From the IMG/VR virus record IMGVR_UViG_3300011116_000065, positions 1 through 24,672 of that record: a stretch of 24,672 bases of DNA, one strand, 5' to 3'. Source of the stretch: a virus. Both the position numbers and the translations under genes were made by a program. This document shows, one piece after another, positions 1,054 through 24,672 of the stretch (its first letter is position 1; every line of letters starts with the position of its first letter). The notes beneath the pieces were generated by a model, which did no database searches, had not been told where the DNA came from, and saw nothing but the letters and a program-made list of their open reading frames with translations.

Positions 1054-3345
1054 CTATACCACCTTTTCCCAGTTCTTTGGATTTGATGGGTCTCCGCCTT
1101 TGAAGCGATGCCCGTCTTCTATAGTACCTACGCGAGGGGTTATAGTGCCAAGTTTATCTCTGTTCTTGGCCGATATAGCTTGTTTTTGAGCATCGGTCAT
1201 TCCAGCATCTGATGCGGCGGGAGCACGTTTTTGCTCTTGGTTTGCTCTTGCTTGGTCAATGATTTCTTGCTTAACTTGTTGCAAAATGCGGTTGTAATTA
1301 TCCTGCGCTTCTTGCAATTTAACTGGGTCACTTCCTGCTTTTAGGATTTCCCATTTGGCTGTTTCTACGCGCCCGTCTTTCATGGCTTTGTCTGTGATAA
1401 CCGCAGATTGTTCCAATGATTTATCTGGCCCAGCGTATTTAACACCATAACGTGCTGCACCGATTTCAGTCATAGCCTGTTTATATTCTTCGGGTGTAAG
1501 TTTTCTACCCATACGTTTTTCATAATCGCTGAGCATACGTTCAAACTCACCGGGTTTATTTAAGGCTTCGCGTTGAACAGCAGCGTGCATAGCCGCAACT
1601 TCTTTTGCGTTTTTGCCTTGCAACTCGGTTTGAGCCATACCGCTTTGCAACTGAGCAACTTTCTCTTGGATGCCAATCTTTGTCTTGTAGGCTTCTTGTG
1701 CTTGTGCTTGTGCTTTGTCTTCCAAGCCCATAGCCAGTTTGGCGTTTCCTTCTTTGCGTGCTTGTTGAGCGGTAGCCAACAAGATTTCAGACTGACGCAG
1801 CTTGTCGTCAACTTCTCTATGTTCTTTCTTGAGACGTCCAACTTCGCCAATGAATGCTTCGCCCGCTTGACCAAGACCAGAAACAAGTTGTTCGGTTTGA
1901 CTGCGACCCCTCATTTCTTTAGGAGTCGACAACAACTTCAAACTTGCCATAGCAATGGCAAGACCCTTGTCTTTTTCCATTTGATCCGCCAGCGCCGCTC
2001 TTTTGGATTTTGTTTCTTCCAAATACGGCTTTGTAACGTCTTCTCCCATGAGTCTTTCAACCATAGGTTGGCGGCTCATAACTCCTTGCTCATACTGTTC
2101 TGCTGTTTGCACTGGAGGTTGTTGCTGAGACATAGCTTGTAAATCAGACAAACTTTGCTCAAACCTGTTTCCATAGGTGTCACCGCCTTTGGCAAACGCC
2201 ACAATACCGCCACCAGCCATCATCGCTTCTTGTTGTTCAGCTGGGATTTGATCAAAGGCTGAACCAAGCCAGTAGTTTAAAGAAGCCGATTGCGCTTGAA
2301 TTGCATTTAATTCTGCGATGCGCTCATCAATGGCTTGTGCTGTATCTACGTCTCGACGTGCAAGAGCGGCTTGTTTGGCTTTTTGTAAAGCTTGAATGCT
2401 GTACATGTCATCAACAATAGCGTCTTTATTGTCTTGGCTTGTGACTGAACTTTCGTTGCCAGCATATCTTTTTATTTCTCCGCCTTCAGCGTATCTGATA
2501 ACAGGTTCGCTCTCATCTACAAGTTCACCCATAGCCATACCACCATCAGCGTATGACTTCATCAAACCACCTTCAGCACCGAACAAACCAGACTTACCAA
2601 AGCCATAAGCCGCGCCACCCAAGCCCGCCAAAGTCTGCACCATACCGGGGCCTGAGCCTTGATAAACCGAGCTGGTTGACTGCTGGCCCAACGGCAAACC
2701 ACGCACCAAGTCAGACATGAAGCCCAACTGCTTGTACGGGTAGTTTTGCTGGTTCAGGAAGTCTTGATACGCCACATCCAAAGGACGTTGCGCTTGCTGT
2801 TGCTGTTGTGCGCCCATTTGTCCTTGCATCTGCGCAAGGCCGGATTGCTGTTGGATGCCTTGGCGGAACTGATTGGCAGCTTGTTCGTATGCAGCTTGCG
2901 AACCTCTGGCTTGAATATCACCCATTTGCTGGGCAAGGTTACGCTCACGTTCTGCCCGCATGATTGCATCACGGCCACCGCCAAACGCACCTGCTTGGGT
3001 TGCTTGGGCTTGTTGCTGAGTACCTGCTATGCCAGCTTGACGACCAGCCTCACGTTTCTCAATGTCCACCACATTCTGCATGTAAGGAGACATGTATTCA
3101 CCAATACCGGCTTTAAACCCAGCCGGGCCAGCATCCATACCACCAACTGTTTTAAATGCCTGCTCTTGGAGTGGCTGAAACCCAGCGATGCGTTGCCCGC
3201 CGTATTGCCGGTACGGGTTCTGATTGATGTCGGTAAGGGCCGCGCCCTTGGCCATAACATCTTTGGCATACGGCTTCGCCCACTCAGGTAACTCAGATAC
3301 CTGAGTTGTTTTTTCTGGCATTGATGGTTGTGACGGACTGCACAT
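1054..3345 (-). CDS. Internal-virion-like structural protein, 763 aa
   Basis: The start is ATG at 3345 with GAGG 8 nt upstream; the SD overlaps the TGA of the acetyltransferase gene. The N-terminal third is Gln/Ala-rich, with a GGGRDAIMRAERERNLAQ segment and a poly-Gln patch, then PLDVAYQDFL and YPYKQLGFMSDLVRGLPLG. I recognise this pattern from virion proteins of uncultured aquatic phages. The centre carries short Gly-Gly motifs (YADGGMAMG, YAEGGEIK, FAKGGDTYG). The C-terminal half is charged and helical, probably coiled coil, and ends in GHRFKGGDPSNPKNWEKVV, a tail seen in other phage virion proteins. Size and position suit an internal core or DNA-ejection protein, but no lysozyme or transglycosylase motif is visible. 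The family is recognised; the function is inferred. Confidence 0.75.
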   Translation of the reverse strand: MCSPSQPSMPEKTTQVSELPEWAKPYAKDVMAKGAALTDINQNPYRQYGGQRIAGFQPLQEQAFKTVGGMDAGPAGFKAGIGEYMSPYMQNVVDIEKREAGRQAGIAGTQQQAQATQAGAFGGGRDAIMRAERERNLAQQMGDIQARGSQAAYEQAANQFRQGIQQQSGLAQMQGQMGAQQQQQAQRPLDVAYQDFLNQQNYPYKQLGFMSDLVRGLPLGQQSTSSVYQGSGPGMVQTLAGLGGAAYGFGKSGLFGAEGGLMKSYADGGMAMGELVDESEPVIRYAEGGEIKRYAGNESSVTSQDNKDAIVDDMYSIQALQKAKQAALARRDVDTAQAIDERIAELNAIQAQSASLNYWLGSAFDQIPAEQQEAMMAGGGIVAFAKGGDTYGNRFEQSLSDLQAMSQQQPPVQTAEQYEQGVMSRQPMVERLMGEDVTKPYLEETKSKRAALADQMEKDKGLAIAMASLKLLSTPKEMRGRSQTEQLVSGLGQAGEAFIGEVGRLKKEHREVDDKLRQSEILLATAQQARKEGNAKLAMGLEDKAQAQAQEAYKTKIGIQEKVAQLQSGMAQTELQGKNAKEVAAMHAAVQREALNKPGEFERMLSDYEKRMGRKLTPEEYKQAMTEIGAARYGVKYAGPDKSLEQSAVITDKAMKDGRVETAKWEILKAGSDPVKLQEAQDNYNRILQQVKQEIIDQARANQEQKRAPAASDAGMTDAQKQAISAKNRDKLGTITPRVGTIEDGHRFKGGDPSNPKNWEKVV

Positions 3346-15708: not shown

Positions 15709-17097
15709 TCAGGTTGTCCCAATCTTTGTCCAAGTATTGGGGTTGCTGTCATTTATTTCTGCCCAGTCAGCGGACTCTGCGGTGTTTAGATTTGCCCAGC
15801 CCGCACTTTGGGCTGCGTTGATTGTCGCCCAAGTTGCGCCTTCTGAGGTGTCTATGTTTGACCAGTTTGCGGTTTGACTGTCGTTGATGAGTTCCCACAA
15901 GAATCGGGCAAAGAACGAGTCCGATACCGTGATGGTTTCTTGGATGGCGGCGATGAATATCTGAGACGCAGTGACCGCATCAATTACACCGCCAAACTCC
16001 TCAATCAGCGCCTCAAATGTGGCAAACGCTTCCATTGCATCCGTAGCCACGGAAGACTCACTGATGTCGGTCAAGAACAAGAATGCGCCTGTTACAGAAT
16101 CCGTGGCAGTAGCGGACTCGCTGATTGAACCAAGAAACGCAAATGAGCTGTCTACAGTATCTGTCGCAGTCACTGATTCTGCAATCTGCGTGGCGTAAAT
16201 CGGTGTCGTTGAATCTTCATCCGTCGCTGTCGCTGTCTCTGCTACATTTGTAGCAAAAGTTTGTACCACAGAATCTGAATCTGTCGCTGTCACCGTCTCT
16301 GACACCACCCCGCCAAAACTTGCTGTAGATGCAATCGCATCTGATGCAGATGCTGCTTCCTCCACCGGAGCGTTGAATGTGCTGGCGGCTACTGCGTCGG
16401 AGTCTGTGGCTGTAACTGTTTCAGATACTGCGGACAAGAACACAAGCAATGCAGACATGACATCTGTTGCAGTTACTGATTCTGCTATTGCTGTTACAAA
16501 ATCTTGCGCTGCGGAGATTGCATCTGTTGCCGTAGCTGTTTCTGACACCGCCACAGCAAAGTCTTGTGTAGATGATATTTCGTCGGTTGCAGTCGCTGAT
16601 TCAGATACCGCGCTTGGGAATTCTGCCGCTGCTGATATAGCGTCCGTTGCTGTTGATGTTTCAGACACCGCTGCCAAAAAGGTCAACAATGATTCAACTG
16701 CATCAGATGCAGTAGCTGTCTCGGATACGGCTGATACAAATTCTTGGATTGCAGATATGGCATCCGTTGCCGTTACTGCCTCGGATATATCTGTTGCAAA
16801 AGTCTGTAAGGCTGAGAGCGTATCAGTGGCTGTCGCAGATTCAGAAATATCAGTGGAGAATGTCGCCGCAGCCGAAATGGAGTCTGTCGCTGTAGATGTC
16901 TCAGAAACTTCCGCCAAAAATGTCAGTAAAGACGAAATTGAATCAGTGGCGGTAGAAGTCTCGGATACATCCGAATTAAAAGTTAAAAGCGAAGATATGC
17001 TATCCGTCGCTGTGGCTGATTCAGATACTGAGGCAGCAAATGTATTACCACTGAGCGACGAAAACGGGGCTTGTGAGAATGCGGTTAAACCAAACAC
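15709..17097 (-). CDS. Tandem-repeat tail protein, 462 aa
   Basis: The start is GTG 17097, the first possible codon after an in-frame TGA, with GGGG about 6 nt upstream. After a 22-residue opening (FGLTAFSQAPFSSLSGN) come 19 repeats of 20 residues (two have 21). The consensus is roughly VSE-S/T-A/V-T-A-T-D-x-I-S plus an aromatic position, so the chain is very rich in Ser, Thr, Ala and acidic residues. The last 58 residues switch to five Trp repeats spaced exactly 11 residues apart. I have seen similar repeats in uncultured phage proteins but know no function. A fibrous shaft or surface spacer attached to the tail is the likeliest role. Confidence 0.72.
   Translation of the reverse strand: MFGLTAFSQAPFSSLSGNTFAASVSESATATDSISSLLTFNSDVSETSTATDSISSLLTFLAEVSETSTATDSISAAATFSTDISESATATDTLSALQTFATDISEAVTATDAISAIQEFVSAVSETATASDAVESLLTFLAAVSETSTATDAISAAAEFPSAVSESATATDEISSTQDFAVAVSETATATDAISAAQDFVTAIAESVTATDVMSALLVFLSAVSETVTATDSDAVAASTFNAPVEEAASASDAIASTASFGGVVSETVTATDSDSVVQTFATNVAETATATDEDSTTPIYATQIAESVTATDTVDSSFAFLGSISESATATDSVTGAFLFLTDISESSVATDAMEAFATFEALIEEFGGVIDAVTASQIFIAAIQETITVSDSFFARFLWELINDSQTANWSNIDTSEGATWATINAAQSAGWANLNTAESADWAEINDSNPNTWTKIGTT
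15712..15885 (-). repeat. Five 11-residue Trp repeats (33-bp period)
   Basis: The last 58 residues of the repeat protein have Trp at positions 8, 19, 30, 41 and 52 of this segment, an exact 11-residue period. The unit is roughly W-x-x-I/L-N/D-T/A-x-E/Q-S-A-x. Confidence 0.85.
15886..17031 (-). repeat. 19 tandem repeats of about 20 residues (60-bp period)
   Basis: Residues 23-404 divide into 19 units; 17 have 20 residues and two have 21. Most keep E at position 3, A-T-D near 7-9 and a large hydrophobic residue near 17. Units 17-19 are the most degenerate. The period keeps the frame, so changes in copy number would alter length only. Confidence 0.88.
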
Positions 17098-17111
17098 TCA
17101 TGCCCCGCCAT

Positions 17112-17288
17112 TTAAACGGCAGCCAGCTCGGACTCAGCAAACCAACGCTGTTGAGGATTGCCATCAACATCAGTCCACTCAATCAGATATGACACGTTGC
17201 CGTCGTCGTCCATGCGCATTGCAATCACTGGGCCTTGGGGTACAACGCCAGCCAGCTTTACGACATCGCCTTTTTTGAATGTTGCCAT
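17112..17288 (-). CDS. Small SH3-like protein (DUF2158-like), 58 aa
   Basis: I start at ATG 17288, with AAGGA about 8 nt upstream; longer readings are shadows of the endonuclease gene. The sequence ATFKKGDVVKLAGVVPQGP, then AMRMDDDGNVSYLIEWTDVD and RWFAESELAAV, has the plan of small DUF2158/KOW-like barrels: a GD-V-V-x-L strand, a central strand, and a closing W-F-x-E-x-E-L. Function unknown; nucleic-acid or protein binding is possible. It lies between the endonuclease-like gene and the repeat protein. Confidence 0.65.
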   Translation of the reverse strand: MATFKKGDVVKLAGVVPQGPVIAMRMDDDGNVSYLIEWTDVDGNPQQRWFAESELAAV

Positions 17289-18506: not shown

Positions 18507-18929
18507 TTAAACAAGTCGAATGAGTGCTGATGTGCTGGTGTTGGCAGGCATCGTCACAGTGAAAGTATTGCTGGATGTTTTGTCGTTACCAAAATCAAGC
18601 ACACAGATTGCGCCGTTGTCTCCGGCTTTGTAAATCAAAGCCCCTCTTGCAGTGATCTGCCCCGTCCAAGACGGTGAAGAAAACGACACGTATGTAACGC
18701 TGCCAGACGCCGTAGCTTCGGATGTAATAGTCGTCGTTACGACTTGCCCGCCTGCTACATAGTCTCCACCAGAAGCCTCGCCAGTTGCAGTGTAGGTTGT
18801 GGTGGTTTCATCCAGCGTTGCATCATTTGTGTACAGGGCCAAATAAAACGTATCTGAAGTCAGATTGATCGTTGCATTGGCTAACCCTGCCCGCAAGGTG
18901 TTGCAAGAAAAGTTTCCTGTGAATGCCAT
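18507..18929 (-). CDS. Conserved beta-rich phage virion protein, 140 aa
   Basis: The gene starts at ATG 18929, overlapping the adaptor stop (TGATG); the TTG one codon upstream is unlikely. The sequence has TFYLALYTNDATLDETTTTY, GEASGGDYVAGGQVV, VTYVSFSSPSWTGQITARGA, LIYKAGDNGAICVLDFGNDK and a closing ALIRLV. This pattern (short beta domain with ARGALIY and VLDFG) is a widespread small phage structural family. Coupling to the adaptor gene suggests a neck or tail component, which is inference. No enzymatic feature is visible. Confidence 0.7.
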   Translation of the reverse strand: MAFTGNFSCNTLRAGLANATINLTSDTFYLALYTNDATLDETTTTYTATGEASGGDYVAGGQVVTTTITSEATASGSVTYVSFSSPSWTGQITARGALIYKAGDNGAICVLDFGNDKTSSNTFTVTMPANTSTSALIRLV

Positions 18930-19618
18930 CAACGAACCCCATTATTCTGAGGAAGCGGCGGCAGTCTAAACTGTCCACTGCGATAGGCATCCTGTCTTTC
19001 AAGACCATCACCCATGCGTTGAGCCAAAGCCAAAGCTTCCTTGTATTTGCCGTCGTACAAGGCAACCATATCAGCCTCACCCTTCATATAGGTATAAGCC
19101 TCGACAAGTGTTCCGTACAACAGGACAGTGTCAAAGTTGTCTCCCAACCATGTGGTGGTTGCAGTTGTGATTGACTCGGGGTAATAGTAGTAATGCAACT
19201 CAACGTCATACGCCGCATCAGGTGTCGGGCCAAGGATAAAACTCAACTCGTTTGTGATGATAGGGCTTGGTGCATTTGTGGTGGTTGGGCCAAACAACGC
19301 ATAGTATTTCGGAAGAGCTGTGTCAGTTGGTTTTGGATATGCCTGACGGATGAAGTTCACATCCTTATTCAACAGATACTCGTAGTTGCCATCCGCATCA
19401 ATCACAGCCAACGAAAATGTTGACAAAAAATCACCGGGGCAAGATAAGTATTTGTTGTTGGCTACCGTGATGCCAGTTACGTTTTTACGGATGGCGGGAA
19501 ACTGAACCGAGTTGTAAATGCGCTGCTCTGCCTGAGTTATGAACGTGTTCATATTCACCGTGGGTACGGTGTTCTCAGTGTAGTCAGTGACCGCAGCTAC
19601 AAGCTCAGAATAGTTCAT
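18929..19618 (-). CDS. Head-to-tail adaptor, SU10-adaptor-like
   Basis: A 229-residue protein whose ATG overlaps the preceding stop (ATGA). It shows the typical opening NYSELVAAVTDYTENTVPTV, FITQAEQRIYNSVQFPAIRK and the later YDVELHYYYYPESITTATTT, WLGDNFDTVLLYGTLVEAYT, YMKGEADMVALYDGKYKEAL. This is the family I know as the SU10-type phage adaptor, which links portal to tail in short-tailed phages. The helical N- and C-terminal parts around a beta middle fit that fold. Length is normal. Presence of this protein supports a short-tailed (podovirus-like) particle. Confidence 0.75.
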   Translation of the reverse strand: MNYSELVAAVTDYTENTVPTVNMNTFITQAEQRIYNSVQFPAIRKNVTGITVANNKYLSCPGDFLSTFSLAVIDADGNYEYLLNKDVNFIRQAYPKPTDTALPKYYALFGPTTTNAPSPIITNELSFILGPTPDAAYDVELHYYYYPESITTATTTWLGDNFDTVLLYGTLVEAYTYMKGEADMVALYDGKYKEALALAQRMGDGLERQDAYRSGQFRLPPLPQNNGVR

Positions 19619-19815
19619 GCCATTGGGCCTCTGGCCATCAAGCCTTTGGTAGCCGCGCCAGTGCCACGGATTTTGATGCCGTCAGTTTTGGTAGGTTTGT
19701 ATTCGCCACTGCGTGTATTGGCAACTGAAACATTTGCTTCGCGCAGATACTTCTTGTTGTCACCAATACCAGCTTCTTGGATGGGTGCTTTTTGAGGTTG
19801 TTTGTACTCAGCCAT
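19615..19815 (-). CDS. Small conserved phage protein ending RGTGAATKG..ARGPMA
   Basis: I start at ATG 19815 (66 residues), one nucleotide after the upstream stop, with AGGGG about 9 nt before. The sequence AEYKQPQKAPIQEAGIGDNK, KYLREANVSVANTRSGEY and KTDGIKIRGTGAATKGLMAR is strikingly conserved across uncultured aquatic phages as I recall. Its end (TDGIKIRG) loosely echoes the ADG-x-A-x-R-G tail of the small genes at 22-24 kb. Basic, probably disordered, no known function. Its frame overlaps the adaptor gene by 4 nt, so it may be a partner of the connector. Confidence 0.7.
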   Translation of the reverse strand: MAEYKQPQKAPIQEAGIGDNKKYLREANVSVANTRSGEYKPTKTDGIKIRGTGAATKGLMARGPMA

Positions 19816-20431: not shown

Positions 20432-21358
20432 TTACCTCCCAATGTAGGTTTGACGGGGCACAAGTCTCAAGGCTGCTTTCTCATGATCTTCGTAGGCGGC
20501 AAGTTCCCAAGCTTCGTCGTACTGCTGCTTCAATATGGGCAAACGCTCCATACCTGTAGGGATCTTCCCAGCGATGTAGTACGACAAGCCAGCGGCCATG
20601 CAAGGGATGAAGCGAAATGGCACGTCCATGATGTTGACACCGCCACCTGCGTCTTGGGTTCGACGCAAGCGCCAATACACCAACTGATACTGTTGGGCAT
20701 TGTCTGGGGTTGGCCAAACGGTGACTGCGGGAACTTGCTGCCAGTAAACGGCTGTACCGCTTGTGTGGCTGGCCGCCGTGGTGTTTTGCTGGCCACGGAA
20801 GCAGTTGTACAAAATGTTGCCTGAGATATAGCTGTAATTGATGATCTCGTTGTCGATCTTTACAAACCCAGCGGCGGGAAGTCCAACCACGGAGTCCAAC
20901 GTAATCTGAGTGTCGGTACTGGTGATTGTTCCGCTCAAAGCTAGTCCTGTGGGCGAAGTCTGGCCGTTGTACCGCTGAATCCAAATCTGGATGGGTCTGG
21001 CTTGAGTGATCTTGTTGGGTATCGTAGCGTAGGTGGAGACGCTGATACGTGTGATGGTCAAATCAGCCTGAGTCGAAGCCACGTTTGCGCCTGTGCGAAT
21101 GACATGCTCCAGCAGGTCGATAGTGTCGTCAGGTAATGGGTAAGTGTTTTGTCCCTGCACCAAGTCAATTGTGCCGGTCTCAATTGTCCACAGGTTGATG
21201 CCCCGGTTGGCCCAATCTGCAAACATGATGTTCAAACTGCGTCTGGCTGTACGCAGGTCATAGCCAGTGCGAAGCTCGCTACCGGCGCGTTCAAATGCCT
21301 CCTCGACCAGCTCGGTGAGGTCTAGGTTAAAGCTGACTGCGCCAGAGGTATTTGCCAT
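20432..21358 (-). CDS. Head-tail connector / tail protein with inserted domain, 308 aa
   Basis: Starts at ATG 21358, 1 nt after the small gene before it. The N-terminal LTELVEEAFERAGSELRTGY, DLRTARRSLNIMFADWANRG and INLWTIETGTIDLVQGQNTY, and later TVWPTPDNAQQYQLVYWRLR, form a conserved phage family seen next to SU10-like adaptors. The C-terminus (GKIPTGMERLPILKQQYDEA, then QTYIGR) is helical. An Ig-like insert (about residues 136-208) lies between IQIWIQRYNG and VTVWPTPD. A connector or tail-tube protein is likely; the exact place in the neck is inferred. Confidence 0.7.
   Translation of the reverse strand: MANTSGAVSFNLDLTELVEEAFERAGSELRTGYDLRTARRSLNIMFADWANRGINLWTIETGTIDLVQGQNTYPLPDDTIDLLEHVIRTGANVASTQADLTITRISVSTYATIPNKITQARPIQIWIQRYNGQTSPTGLALSGTITSTDTQITLDSVVGLPAAGFVKIDNEIINYSYISGNILYNCFRGQQNTTAASHTSGTAVYWQQVPAVTVWPTPDNAQQYQLVYWRLRRTQDAGGGVNIMDVPFRFIPCMAAGLSYYIAGKIPTGMERLPILKQQYDEAWELAAYEDHEKAALRLVPRQTYIGR
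20735..20953 (-). other. Inserted Ig-like/beta domain in the connector protein
   Basis: Residues about 136-208 (TLDSVVGLPAAGFVKIDNEI, INYSYISGN, CFRGQQNTTAASHTSGTAV) match a small module common in phage structural proteins: a G-x-x-x-I-D-x-E-x-I-x-Y strand pair, then RG...T.A.H. It interrupts the path from IWIQRY to TVWPTPD. Confidence 0.5.
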
Positions 21359-22041: not shown

Positions 22042-22262
22042 CAGATCATCGTCCCACGAGTTTTGCCGCGCTGAGCGCAGCCATCAGCACGGCTGGAGGC
22101 AGAACCGCCTTTAGCCATACCCTTGACCTTTTTGCCATCCACACGAATGTCTTGACCGGGCTGCTCAGGCATGCCCGGCTCACCCTTTTTGAACTTGCGT
22201 CCAGCAGATGCGTCGTCAATGTCTTTTGGCGCTTGTTTATTCTTTTCCAGATCGTCGTTCAT
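22041..22262 (-). CDS. Small tagged protein, 73 aa, ends ADGCAQRGKTRGTMI
   Basis: I start at ATG 22262 because a GAGGTG SD built on the upstream TGA lies 5 nt before it. Residues 1-50 are polar (NDDLEKNKQAPKDIDDASAG, RKFKKGEPGMPEQPGQDIRV). Then come DGKKVKGMAKGG and SSRADG and the 15-residue tail shared with three other genes nearby. The protein is probably disordered and its function is unknown. The shared tail and the AKGG motif tie it to the rest of the cluster. See the tag finding for the comparison. Confidence 0.65.
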   Translation of the reverse strand: MNDDLEKNKQAPKDIDDASAGRKFKKGEPGMPEQPGQDIRVDGKKVKGMAKGGSASSRADGCAQRGKTRGTMI

Positions 22263-22269
22263 GAGCACC

Positions 22270-23154
22270 TCAATACATTTTGCAACGGGTTTTGCCGCGA
22301 GATGCAATCCCGTCAGCGCGTTTGGAGGCAGAAGAAACCTTGGAAGTCATGCCGCCGGAAGCCATCTTTTTGACCGCGCCGCCACGCTTCATACCAGAAG
22401 CTTGTTTGGCCTCACGCGAACGACGCTCTGCGGGAGTTTCAAAGTTGCTTATGTAATCAGAAACGCCAGAAGCAACTGACTTGGCTTTATCCATCACCGC
22501 TTGCCGGTTTGCTGCTGCTTGTGCGCTTGAGGGTACCTTACCGGGGGTAAAGTCAGTGGCTGGCGCACGGCGGGGCACATAGTTTTTCATGCCTTCAGCT
22601 GAAGACGACACGGTGCTTTTAGGCGCAGGTGGCGTAGATGATGTTGCTGGAGTAGCAGTCGGTGTGCGGCGCGGCACATAGTTCTTCATGCCCTCTTCTG
22701 ACGAGGACACTGTACTCACAGGTTTTGGTGCTGCACGTGTGCCGCGACTCATATCAGCTTCCAAATCACGCTTTTCTGGGGCAAGTTTGATTGATTTATC
22801 AGACGGCTCAGATACCGGCTTGAGGGGTTTAGTTTCAACAGCCGATGGAGTTACCGCCACAGATTTGGGTTTGGGTGTGGGTTTTACATCCAAATTAGGT
22901 TCAGACTTATCTGGCCCGGGGGTAGTAGTCCCAGCCGCTCCTTTGGTTGATATGGAGGTAGATTTATCTGACTTGTCCGCCTCGGCAATACTCTCTGCTG
23001 GAGTTTTTAGCCGGGTTTCTGTAGATTTATAGCCCGGGCCGGTATCTTCTTTACCTTTGGGGGACTCTTTATCCTTGTCCTTACCTTTAGACATCATGTA
23101 TGCCGCGCCCGCAAGCGCAGCAAGTCCAGCTAATTTTCCAGCGTTTTTTGCCAT
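22270..23154 (-). CDS. Disordered tagged protein with N-terminal hydrophobic segment, 294 aa
   Basis: ATG 23154 follows TAAGGAG, which holds the previous stop. Residues 8-22 are hydrophobic and Gly/Ala-rich (LAGLAALAGAAYMM), perhaps a membrane or packing segment. Residues 23-200 are rich in Lys, Pro, Ser and Thr and probably disordered; a block of 17-18 residues (STVSSS-E-EGMKNYVPRR) occurs twice, 99 bp apart. The C-terminal region has KRGGAVKKMASGGMTSK and ends in the shared 15-residue tail, with Cys where the others have Gly. The family is unknown to me. A virion-associated linker or internal protein is one possibility. Confidence 0.65.
   Translation of the reverse strand: MAKNAGKLAGLAALAGAAYMMSKGKDKDKESPKGKEDTGPGYKSTETRLKTPAESIAEADKSDKSTSISTKGAAGTTTPGPDKSEPNLDVKPTPKPKSVAVTPSAVETKPLKPVSEPSDKSIKLAPEKRDLEADMSRGTRAAPKPVSTVSSSEEGMKNYVPRRTPTATPATSSTPPAPKSTVSSSAEGMKNYVPRRAPATDFTPGKVPSSAQAAANRQAVMDKAKSVASGVSDYISNFETPAERRSREAKQASGMKRGGAVKKMASGGMTSKVSSASKRADGIASRGKTRCKMY
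22567..22716 (-). repeat. Direct repeat in the disordered tagged protein
   Basis: Two copies, at about 22666-22716 and 22567-22617, encode STVSSSEEGMKNYVPRR and STVSSSAEGMKNYVPRR. They lie 99 bp apart in the same frame. The match at the protein level is nearly perfect, suggesting recent duplication or a selected motif. Confidence 0.8.
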
Positions 23155-23164
23155 GATTTACTCC

Positions 23165-23689
23165 TTAGCAGTAGGCCTTGCCGCCCTTTTTCATGCCCAG
23201 TGGTTTAGAACCAGACATCTTGACCATTGATCCTTTGGAGATACCGCTTTTTTGAACAGCATGCTCGCCTTTACCTTTTGTGCCGCCGGAAGGAACTTTA
23301 CCCATCTTGGCAGAAGTGATGCCGCCCGTTGCCATCTTTTTCATACCGCCTTTTTTCATGCCGTATTCCTCTTTTTCATGTTTGATCATGGACTTGGGTG
23401 CGCCCTTTTTCTCCATGAATGAAACTTCTTTTTTGGCCATTGCTTTGGATTCTTTCATTTCGCCACCTTTTTTGAAAAGTTCCTGTTTACCTTGATTGGT
23501 TTTAGGGTTGTTAATTGTTTGTCGGTCAGCGCGGGTTGCAACTGATCGGTCTTTGCCAAACTTCATGCCTTTACTGGCTTCGCTGAAGTCTTTACCCACG
23601 GATTGTGGAACTCCGGCCTTCTTCGCAAATGCTGGATTGTGCGCCACAGCATCCATGAATTTCTTTTGTTTAAGACTTGTTGCTGGCAT
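23165..23689 (-). CDS. DUF3008-like basic protein, 174 aa
   Basis: I start at ATG 23689, because PATSLKQKKFMDAVAHNPAF then AKKAGVPQSVGKDFSEASKG is a conserved N-terminus resembling DUF3008 (MPATSK-type) proteins; the upstream extension is a shadow of the holin-like gene. An AAGAAAG SD lies about 8 nt before. The rest is very Lys/Met/Gly-rich, with repeated KKGG and ATGG motifs (KKGGEMKES, MKKGGMKKMATGG, MKKGGKAYC). It lacks the ADG tail of its neighbours but shares these motifs. Perhaps a nucleic-acid-binding internal protein; function not established. It overlaps the upstream gene by 20 nt. Confidence 0.65.
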   Translation of the reverse strand: MPATSLKQKKFMDAVAHNPAFAKKAGVPQSVGKDFSEASKGMKFGKDRSVATRADRQTINNPKTNQGKQELFKKGGEMKESKAMAKKEVSFMEKKGAPKSMIKHEKEEYGMKKGGMKKMATGGITSAKMGKVPSGGTKGKGEHAVQKSGISKGSMVKMSGSKPLGMKKGGKAYC

Positions 23690-23876
23690 CGTTGTCTTTC
23701 TTACGATTGACGATTTTCTGCACCGTGTCTGTTTCATAGATACGGATGCACATCCAGACAATAGTCAACAAAGAACCAATCAAAGCTACTGTTGGCGTGA
23801 GCCACCCCATAACGCTAGTTGCGGCTACTGCCACAGCTGCGCCATCTGTAGTTACCTTTATATCGTGCGTGTTCAT
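23670..23876 (-). CDS. Holin-like small membrane protein, 68 aa
   Basis: ATG 23876 overlaps the previous stop (ATGA). After a polar start (NTHDIKVTTDG) come two hydrophobic stretches (about 12-35 and 36-46: AAVAVAATSVMGWLTPTVAL, SLLTIVWMCIRIY) and a charged tail (ETDTVQKIVNRKKDNDASNK). Size, topology and the IYETDTVQ..V segment resemble small phage holins of the T7-like or class II kind. However, it lies 14 kb from the lysis block, which already has a holin candidate. So it could be a second holin, an antiholin or an unrelated membrane protein. Confidence 0.5.
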   Translation of the reverse strand: MNTHDIKVTTDGAAVAVAATSVMGWLTPTVALIGSLLTIVWMCIRIYETDTVQKIVNRKKDNDASNKS

Positions 23877-24064
23877 ACAAACTTGCCTTTTGTTTTACCA
23901 CGCTGAGCGATGCCATCAGCGCGACGAGAGGCGGTCATGCCGCCTTTTTTCATTGCCGTGTACTGCTGCGAATTAGGGTCGTAGGTGTACTTAGGTGCGG
24001 CTTCTTCTTTCTTACCGCGAATCAACTCTATTATTTTTTCTGGTAATTCTGCAAAAAGTCCCAT
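23873..24064 (-). CDS. Small tagged protein, 63 aa, ends ADGIAQRGKTKGKFV
   Basis: ATG 24064 directly abuts the upstream stop. The N-terminus GLFAELPEKIIELIRGKKEE is an amphipathic helix. A Tyr-rich linker (KYTYDPNSQQYTAMKKGG) leads to MTASRRADG and the 15-residue tail common to four genes here. No function is known. The arrangement, a short helix joined to a common tail, suggests the helix is the variable part and the tail a common targeting or binding element (inference). Confidence 0.65.
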   Translation of the reverse strand: MGLFAELPEKIIELIRGKKEEAAPKYTYDPNSQQYTAMKKGGMTASRRADGIAQRGKTKGKFV

Positions 24065-24388
24065 TTACACAAACCTACCTTTCGTCTTGCCTTTGGTGGC
24101 GCAGCCATCAGCTTTGGTGACGTATCCGCCATCTGCGCAGTTCCATGCACGGAGGCTCTTGTTAATCCTCGAATCCGGATCGCTTGCGGTCTTGGCGCTC
24201 GTAAGCTTAGCTTTCATGCCTTTCATTCGGGCGCAGAAAGAGTCGCGGCGACTGCCGCCCTGTGGCTGAGGTGGCTTCAACCCGGGTTTCCCCGGATTTG
24301 CTGCGTTGTAGGAAGCTCGTCCTTTGGCGTTCAGCCCGCCTTTGGGATTCTTCCCTTCCGCTCTCTGCCATGCGGGTGACTTAGCCAT
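24065..24388 (-). CDS. DUF6321-like tagged protein, 107 aa
   Basis: ATG 24388 overlaps the upstream gene end by 8 nt (ATGGCTAA). The opening AKSPAWQRAEGKNPKGGLNA, then KGRASYNAANPGKPGLKPPQ and PQGGSRRDSFCARMKGMKAK, LTSAKTASDPDSRINKSLRA is a well-known conserved phage and cyanophage small protein, to my memory DUF6321. Function unknown. The C-terminus adds WNCADGGYVTKADG and the shared 15-residue tail (CATKGKTKGRFV). It is the tagged gene with the most recognisable body. SD is weak; overlap suggests coupling to the gene before. Confidence 0.72.
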   Translation of the reverse strand: MAKSPAWQRAEGKNPKGGLNAKGRASYNAANPGKPGLKPPQPQGGSRRDSFCARMKGMKAKLTSAKTASDPDSRINKSLRAWNCADGGYVTKADGCATKGKTKGRFV

Positions 24389-24672
24389 AAAACACCATGA
24401 CAGAGGCAATGGTGGTTATGTCAACATAAATTCCAGAGTTAAACAGCAAGCCTTCATGGGGGAGCAACATGTAATCAGCCCCTGTTGTACCCGCAAAAAC
24501 ATTGACTGTTAAGCGTGTAGTACCACTTGCGCCGCCATCCTTAAACACCACTGATCCAGCAGTAGAAGCGGTCGGGATAATGCGAATAGCCTTAATCCGC
24601 GCCCGCCCAATTGCATGGCCAGCTTGGTCGTTTAATACTCCGTCTTCAGTGCGTATTGCACAGGCTAGGATG
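24381..24672 (-). CDS. Beta-rich small virion-type protein, C-terminal part (runs off right edge)
   Basis: The frame is open from the right edge for 96 codons to TAA at 24381-24383, so the N-terminus is missing. It reads IGRARIKAIRIIPTASTAGS, VVFKDGGASGTTRLTVNVFA, GADYMLLPHEGLLFNSGIYV and DITTIASVMVFYG. This pattern (VxFxDG, then G-L-x-F-N-S-G-I-Y-V, ending V-F-Y-G) recurs in small phage genes that lie near the capsid genes. The fold is probably a small beta sandwich. Function unknown. Capsid, portal and packaging genes are expected beyond this edge, which is inference. Confidence 0.7.
   Translation of the reverse strand, partial: ILACAIRTEDGVLNDQAGHAIGRARIKAIRIIPTASTAGSVVFKDGGASGTTRLTVNVFAGTTGADYMLLPHEGLLFNSGIYVDITTIASVMVFYG

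Follow-up and report, generated by a model that had tools for sequence, protein, structure and literature searches.

The 24,672-base virus contig IMGVR_UViG_3300011116_000065 from IMG/VR, analysed here over its full length and hereafter called the window, stops short of the major capsid gene and encodes, on the minus strand, four small proteins (gene ends 24065, 23873, 22270 and 22041) that have a C-terminal peptide in common, which in each case reaches the stop codon. When the window was searched with a degenerate pattern of this peptide (hereafter, the tag) that allowed up to two mismatches, four matches were obtained, all of them exact and all on the minus strand, against 0 expected from 100 shuffles; four of the 466 terminated open reading frames (ORFs) of at least 30 amino acids (aa) have the motif within their final 17 residues, compared with 0.0 per shuffled proteome. 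The remaining parts of the four proteins, the bodies, show no mutual BLAST match at E<0.05, in agreement with a preliminary description of the window which had claimed that four unrelated bodies carry one tail up to the stop codon. The same description called the tag exact and its DNA similar between copies; both statements need softening because the tag is a consensus rather than an exact repeat and the four core copies (48 nucleotides) are just 42-69% identical at the DNA level.

The tail, perceived initially as 15 gapless residues, is indeed present but is longer, about 23-31 residues, and consists of [MYF]xxGG, a Ser/Ala-rich linker of 3-11 residues, the core [RK]ADG[IC]Ax[RK]GKT[KR]G[KR][MFI][VC] and the stop codon. 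The Gly-Gly pair (GG), already perceived ahead of most copies, precedes the core in all four tags of the window and, at a distance of up to 22 residues, in 256 of the 257 C-terminal copies collected elsewhere, compared with 17% of background windows; therefore the tag is bipartite. The spacing between GG and the core is mostly 4 to 9 residues, made up of Ser, Ala, Thr, Val, Lys and Arg. The pattern scan of viral contigs yielded at least 120 loci, and most of the matches end exactly four residues past GKT[KR]. The conservation of A, D, G, K and T in the core is partly by construction, given that several core positions were prescribed by the scan pattern; no such constraint applied to GG, to the linker composition, to the three terminal residues or to the placement directly before the stop codon. 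A profile derived from the tag picked up additional forms that the pattern missed, such as SASKRGDGIAQRGKTRGRMV.

The placement of the motif is less uniform than a C-terminal tail would imply: 288 matches are indeed C-terminal, but 159 are located near the C-terminus and 36 are N-terminal. The N-terminal form opens neck-region proteins of 61-64 aa that are encoded between the two portal-tail adaptors, MAYTRSADGIAKKGKTEGK..., and in the phrog_16759-type family the motif is found some 9-27 residues before the end of the protein. The window encodes a member of this family whose tag region, near the C-terminus, is degenerate, unlike that of most relatives, in which the motif is present there. The N-terminal ADG-GKT proteins, namely the one at L142:11926-12114 and about 20 similar ones, all 61-64 aa long, end in GRN[LM]A..QKRG.

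Two other proteins of the window resemble parts of the tag. A small protein encoded at 19615-19815 ends with TDGIKIRGTGAATKGLMARGPMA, an ending that is common to short proteins beside adaptor 2 across the clade and bears a distant resemblance to the ADG tag. A 763-aa protein (1054-3345), weakly similar to a DNA ejection protein (phrog_4287), contains several ..A[DEK]GG patches that resemble the patch opening the tag.

How different are the tagged bodies? Among 273 C-tagged bodies collected, only one of the 158 within-locus pairs shows similarity, over 20 residues; the bodies fall into 113-170 families, depending on the threshold, and in an alignment of 118 family representatives the invariant columns are confined to the tag. 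Of the two findings that the preliminary description had named as able to undo its claim, neither holds: the pattern is common elsewhere, and full-length homology of the tagged proteins is ruled out by body clustering and pairwise comparison. When the tag is excluded and the low-complexity filter is on, homologues of a C-tagged body are detected on average in 8% of the other genomes; in the same comparison, the capsid protein reaches 87% and the untagged genes between the adaptors 66%. The fraction of bodies without any relative is 70% with the filter on and 30% with the filter off (median 2 of 54 genomes), which implies that the bodies are in part very fast-evolving and not all unrelated across genomes. 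Disorder-promoting residues account for 80% of the C-tagged bodies, which are slightly basic and contain few hydrophobic residues. Comparison of the 118 representatives with Pfam, PHROGs, NCBIfam and PADLOC identified no family that was matched by more than two members and no profile that covers the tag; the domains recognised are essentially DUF6321 and the phrog_16759 domain alone. The latter is also the N-terminal part of PHROG families with a virion structural annotation, and in cyanophage S-P4 DUF6321 forms the C-terminal end of a 529-aa annotated structural protein; thus, both recognised body domains point to virions.

The DUF6321 domain (PF19846), an approximately 80-residue domain of cyanophages and pelagiphages with predicted helices, also provides the clearest indication that the tag is portable. 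There are 21 tagged and 119 untagged copies, and every untagged homologue stops, in the alignment, at ..W[NK]C, precisely where the tag of the window copy begins. The existence of the same domain with and without an exactly appended tag is decisive for modularity: the tag is a separate, exchangeable addition that most copies of the domain lack. In the AlphaFold model of the window copy, the domain is predicted with moderate confidence whereas residues 86-107, i.e. the tag, as well as residues 39-42, have a predicted local distance difference test (pLDDT) score <50, so that the tag is modelled as a probably unstructured tail following the domain.

The tag is maintained by purifying selection on the peptide. 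Between loci, and with different bodies, the proportion of synonymous differences (pS) is 0.73 and that of nonsynonymous differences (pN) is 0.24, a ratio of 0.33, probably an overestimate given the near-saturation of pS. With synonymous sites near saturation and the peptide kept, selection acts on the protein and not on the DNA. Codon identity at sites with the same residue is 0.467 within a genome, slightly above the 0.425 obtained between genomes (as high in 3 of 500 permutations), and one of the 107 within-genome tag pairs reaches 94% nucleotide identity. Judging by this divergence, the copies of the tag are either old or exchanging only occasionally. Recent duplication is ruled out by the synonymous divergence, and the earlier suggestion that the tag was spread by duplication or recombination, drawn from similar DNA, is not supported as regards recent events, since the copies differ at most synonymous positions.

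Table 1. Features of the window around the tagged genes
Feature	Coordinates	Strand	Evidence
Tagged gene 1, 107 aa, DUF6321 domain (PF19846) with appended tag	24065..24388	-	Pfam, E 8e-20
Tag 1, ADGGYVTKADGCATKGKTKGRFV	24068..24136	-	exact pattern match
Tagged gene 2, 63 aa, begins MGLFAELPEKIIELIRG..	23873..24064	-	PHROG none; Pfam none above cut-off
Tag 2, MKKGGMTASRRADGIAQRGKTKGKFV	23876..23953	-	pattern match
Untagged small membrane-type protein, flanked by tagged genes	23670..23876	-	sole PHROG match very weak, E 0.077
MPATSLKQKKF.. protein, phrog_16759 N-terminal domain, end GMKKGGKAYC	23165..23689	-	PHROG
Tagged gene 3, 294 aa	22270..23154	-	PHROG none; Pfam none above cut-off
Tag 3, MASGGMTSKVSSASKRADGIASRGKTRCKMY	22273..22365	-	pattern match
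Tagged gene 4, 73 aa	22041..22262	-	pattern match
Tag 4, MAKGGSASSRADGCAQRGKTRGTMI	22044..22118	-	pattern match
Portal-tail adaptor 1 (SU10_adaptor)	20432..21358	-	Pfam PF24175; interval analysis
Adaptor 2 (SU10_adaptor, phrog_2941)	18929..19618	-	profile matches
Protein of ~96 aa, end ..MVFYG, truncated by window edge	24381..24671	-	gene order in L136, L141, L277

The genes of the window (Table 1) include several neighbours that help place the tagged ones. In this phage group the tag region is bounded downstream by adaptor 1, and relatives of the protein that is truncated by the window edge are encoded after the major capsid gene and ahead of DUF6321. Tagged gene 3 encodes a short hydrophobic N-terminal segment, a long low-complexity middle part and the tag. 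Tagged genes 1 and 4 likely start at the ATG codons at 24388 and 22262, respectively, rather than at the upstream TTG codons. Elsewhere in the window, a 462-aa protein (15709-17097) consists of degenerate repeats of the ETATATDAISA type; a long open frame at 16373-17278 runs antisense to it on the plus strand.

The gene order, as it emerges from the relatives, runs from terminase, portal, GroES, a putative scaffold, capsid and decoration-type genes through DUF6321, the small membrane protein, the phrog_16759-type protein and the tagged genes to two small basic genes, adaptor 1 and adaptor 2. The occurrence of the tag was assessed in samples of loci drawn from contig fragments with a simple ORF caller. 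At least one tag is present in 33 of the 36 capsid-sampled loci with a complete capsid-adaptor interval and in all 29 adaptor-2-sampled loci, with one to five matches each; pooled, these two tag-independent samples include 62 tagged viral contigs among 65, in line with the earlier expectation that such tails occur across many uncultured phages. Relative to the capsid-adaptor interval, 151 motif matches lie inside and 11 outside, so by position the tag is nearly confined to the head-neck operon, and 121 of the 128 loci sampled by the pattern itself contain the same terminase, portal, capsid or adaptor genes. The designation of these phages as aquatic derives from the habitats of named relatives and from the preliminary description.

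Among cultured relatives, no tag was found in the sampled structural regions of the Pelagibacter phages HTVC023P and HTVC027P, Roseobacter phage CRP-902 and Caulobacter phage RW, nor in the metagenome-assembled DSL-LC04, and a tblastn search of 50,697 phage records with the tag gave no match, although the 28-aa query is too short for a fair test. Planktothrix phage Pag-Yong1 and near-identical records encode a single diverged C-terminal tag, GGMIGRDGCAKRGRTKGRFI; the single diverged tag of Pag-Yong1, Synechococcus phage MinM2 and Pra-JY27 was detected by the profile only. The records OQ594354.1, OL906435.1 and PP438419.1 are each 65,014 bases long and encode an identical tagged protein, with Synechococcus, Planktothrix and Planktothricoides as the stated hosts; possibly, this is one phage deposited thrice, or else a phage with a broad host range. 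Among 84,980 genomes of cellular species, the matches are limited to four contigs, of which at least two carry the phage genes. One 83.8-kb contig of a Chitinophagales metagenome-assembled genome (MAG), JAGYJT010000012.1 (locus L125), encodes the capsid protein (87% identical), adaptors and tags and probably represents phage DNA that was assigned to the MAG during binning. Literature searches for the motif strings, for DUF6321 and, in one broad search, for shared C-terminal signals gave nothing relevant; the tag is not described in any profile library or paper searched.

Sister lineages display alternative tags at the same position. In 41 contigs of the same clade (L073, L279, L325-L363), a second C-terminal tag, [KR]GWG[MI]ARGARxAK[IMV]x, follows KKGG on different bodies, generally once per genome and usually alongside ADG tags. 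A third tag, VRGAGCAxKGVRxCKM[MVC], is present in 19 contigs of the clade (L233, L364-L381), in none of which an ADG tag was found; this exclusion is a count over 19 contigs, a Fisher test that would mix tag-drawn samples being left aside. GG precedes both alternative tags. In the capsid tree, the RGAGCA type is a nested group within the ADG-tag clade, so that the tag type has been exchanged as a unit, as read from this tree. Such exchange is the behaviour to be expected of a recognition element, but inheritance alone could also produce it. In column 223 of the capsid alignment, an invariant Leu of the ADG type is replaced by Gly in 12 of 12 RGAGCA-type capsid proteins, a conceivable, if weak, clue to the reader of the tag.

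So what could such a peptide be for? The reading that we favor, and to which we would give an even chance, is that of a portable bipartite recruitment tag that a single shared partner in head assembly recognises at the protein level. GG, the flexible linker and RADG[IC]AxRGKTRGKMV would then make up an address peptide for a single head component, putatively the scaffold, the inner face of the major capsid protein or the portal, and would load hypervariable, mostly disordered small proteins into or onto the prohead, from which these might be delivered together with the DNA, like the internal proteins of T4-like phages. Several considerations weigh against this scenario. Most of the bodies belong to no family in the four libraries and hence give no direct sign of an anti-defence or ejection function, and neither virion proteomics nor a structure was found for any tagged protein. 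Furthermore, the N-terminal motif in the neck-region protein fits the portal or neck equally with the capsid interior, and the search for RGAGCA-specific substitutions produced one capsid site and little else, with no strong candidate for the partner. Searches of PDB sequences with the capsid, the adaptor, the Pag-Yong1 tagged protein and the tag profile gave no match.

The main rival is a tag that fixes small disordered proteins to the portal, the adaptor or the outer capsid, where they would act as permanent glue, decoration or assembly helpers, with no delivery to the host involved. This alternative, which we rate as unlikely but worth serious attention, is compatible with the location of the tagged genes between the capsid and adaptor genes, with the N-terminal motif on the small protein encoded between the two adaptors, and with bodies that are mostly disordered and lack enzyme domains; glue and decoration proteins, however, are usually about as conserved as the target to which they bind, whereas here the bodies turn over while the capsid and the adaptors are conserved. 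The near-invariant GG, which precedes the C-terminal tags at variable spacing and the two alternative tags as well, might instead be a cleavage site at which a protease removes the tag after assembly, an improbable but not incompatible addition to recruitment given that the two could coexist. Conservation downstream of GG, however, goes beyond the needs of a cleavage site, and no protease family was detected among the head-operon proteins searched, except for the similarity of the capsid protein to capsid-protease fusions.

With about six Lys or Arg residues within the last 16 positions and slightly basic C-tagged bodies, the tag could also be thought of as a basic, Gly-rich tail that binds and condenses packaged DNA; charge alone, however, requires neither the near-invariant ADG, A and T positions nor the swap for other defined tags, which makes this quite improbable in our view. 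The possibility that the tag is a C-terminal degron or a ligand of a host factor, read by a host protease or chaperone and not by the virion, derives from the C-terminal placement and from the basic-then-hydrophobic end, and MuA-like ClpX signals look similar, a lead only; because the motif is also N-terminal and near-C-terminal and is confined to the head operon of a single phage clade, we regard this as highly improbable. Finally, a DNA-level element, be it a recombination linker or a ribosome-binding device, of which the translation is incidental, was already disfavored and has little credibility left: 70% of the tags directly adjoin the following start codon or overlap it, compared with 43% of the untagged genes, but pS is near saturation with the peptide kept, and motifs resembling the Shine-Dalgarno (SD) sequence are no commoner in tags (0.26) than in other abutting genes (0.30). 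A role in ribosome binding or translation coupling was rejected for this lack of SD enrichment.

If recruitment to the capsid is indeed the function of the tag, it would mark, by sequence alone, a hidden set of virion proteins of widespread phages, mostly without a known family; this set would be a natural hunting ground for new counter-defence or takeover proteins, and the tag itself would offer a short C-terminal handle for loading phage particles, a counterpart to the N-terminal T4 signal. More tentatively, and with considerable doubt, the exchangeable C-terminal tags (ADG-GKT, GWGxARGAR and RGAGCA) might constitute an undescribed class of phage address labels in a large podovirus-like clade, with a cognate virion reader that changes along with the tag type and with modular loading and swapping of delivered effectors.

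Known systems offer instructive parallels. The internal proteins of T-even phages are a highly diverse set, hypervariable within one phage, that share only a capsid targeting sequence (CTS) (PMC3012670). The likeness consists in one short peptide on otherwise diverse proteins of the same phage (here, a single similar pair of bodies among 158), and the analogy to capsid targeting sequences drawn in the preliminary description, with the signal at the opposite end, appears apt; the T4 CTS, however, is N-terminal, whereas the present tag is mainly C-terminal and includes the GG element. The CTS of T4 contains the cleavage motif of the prohead protease gp21, which includes Glu; Glu is absent from the consensus of the present tag. 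Phage P1 packages a foreign protein into its capsid when that protein bears the N-terminal signal of DarB, of which 30 residues are enough (PMC9024508). That signal has no consensus among the Dar proteins, whereas here one consensus extends over more than 100 families. Because the present tag differs from the T4 and P1 signals in the end of the protein, the sequence and the GG element, we class it as a candidate that would work alike, not as a member of either system. Encapsulin cargo-loading peptides, which are short, C-terminal and borne by various cargo proteins, are read by an HK97-fold shell, those shells being cellular compartments. The capsid gene of the relatives of the window matches Phage_capsid_4 and Mu-like gpT, and the AlphaFold model of the capsid protein reaches a pLDDT of 34. 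Here, too, a C-terminal peptide is carried by unrelated bodies, so that the tag may resemble the encapsulin peptides in the logic of its use.

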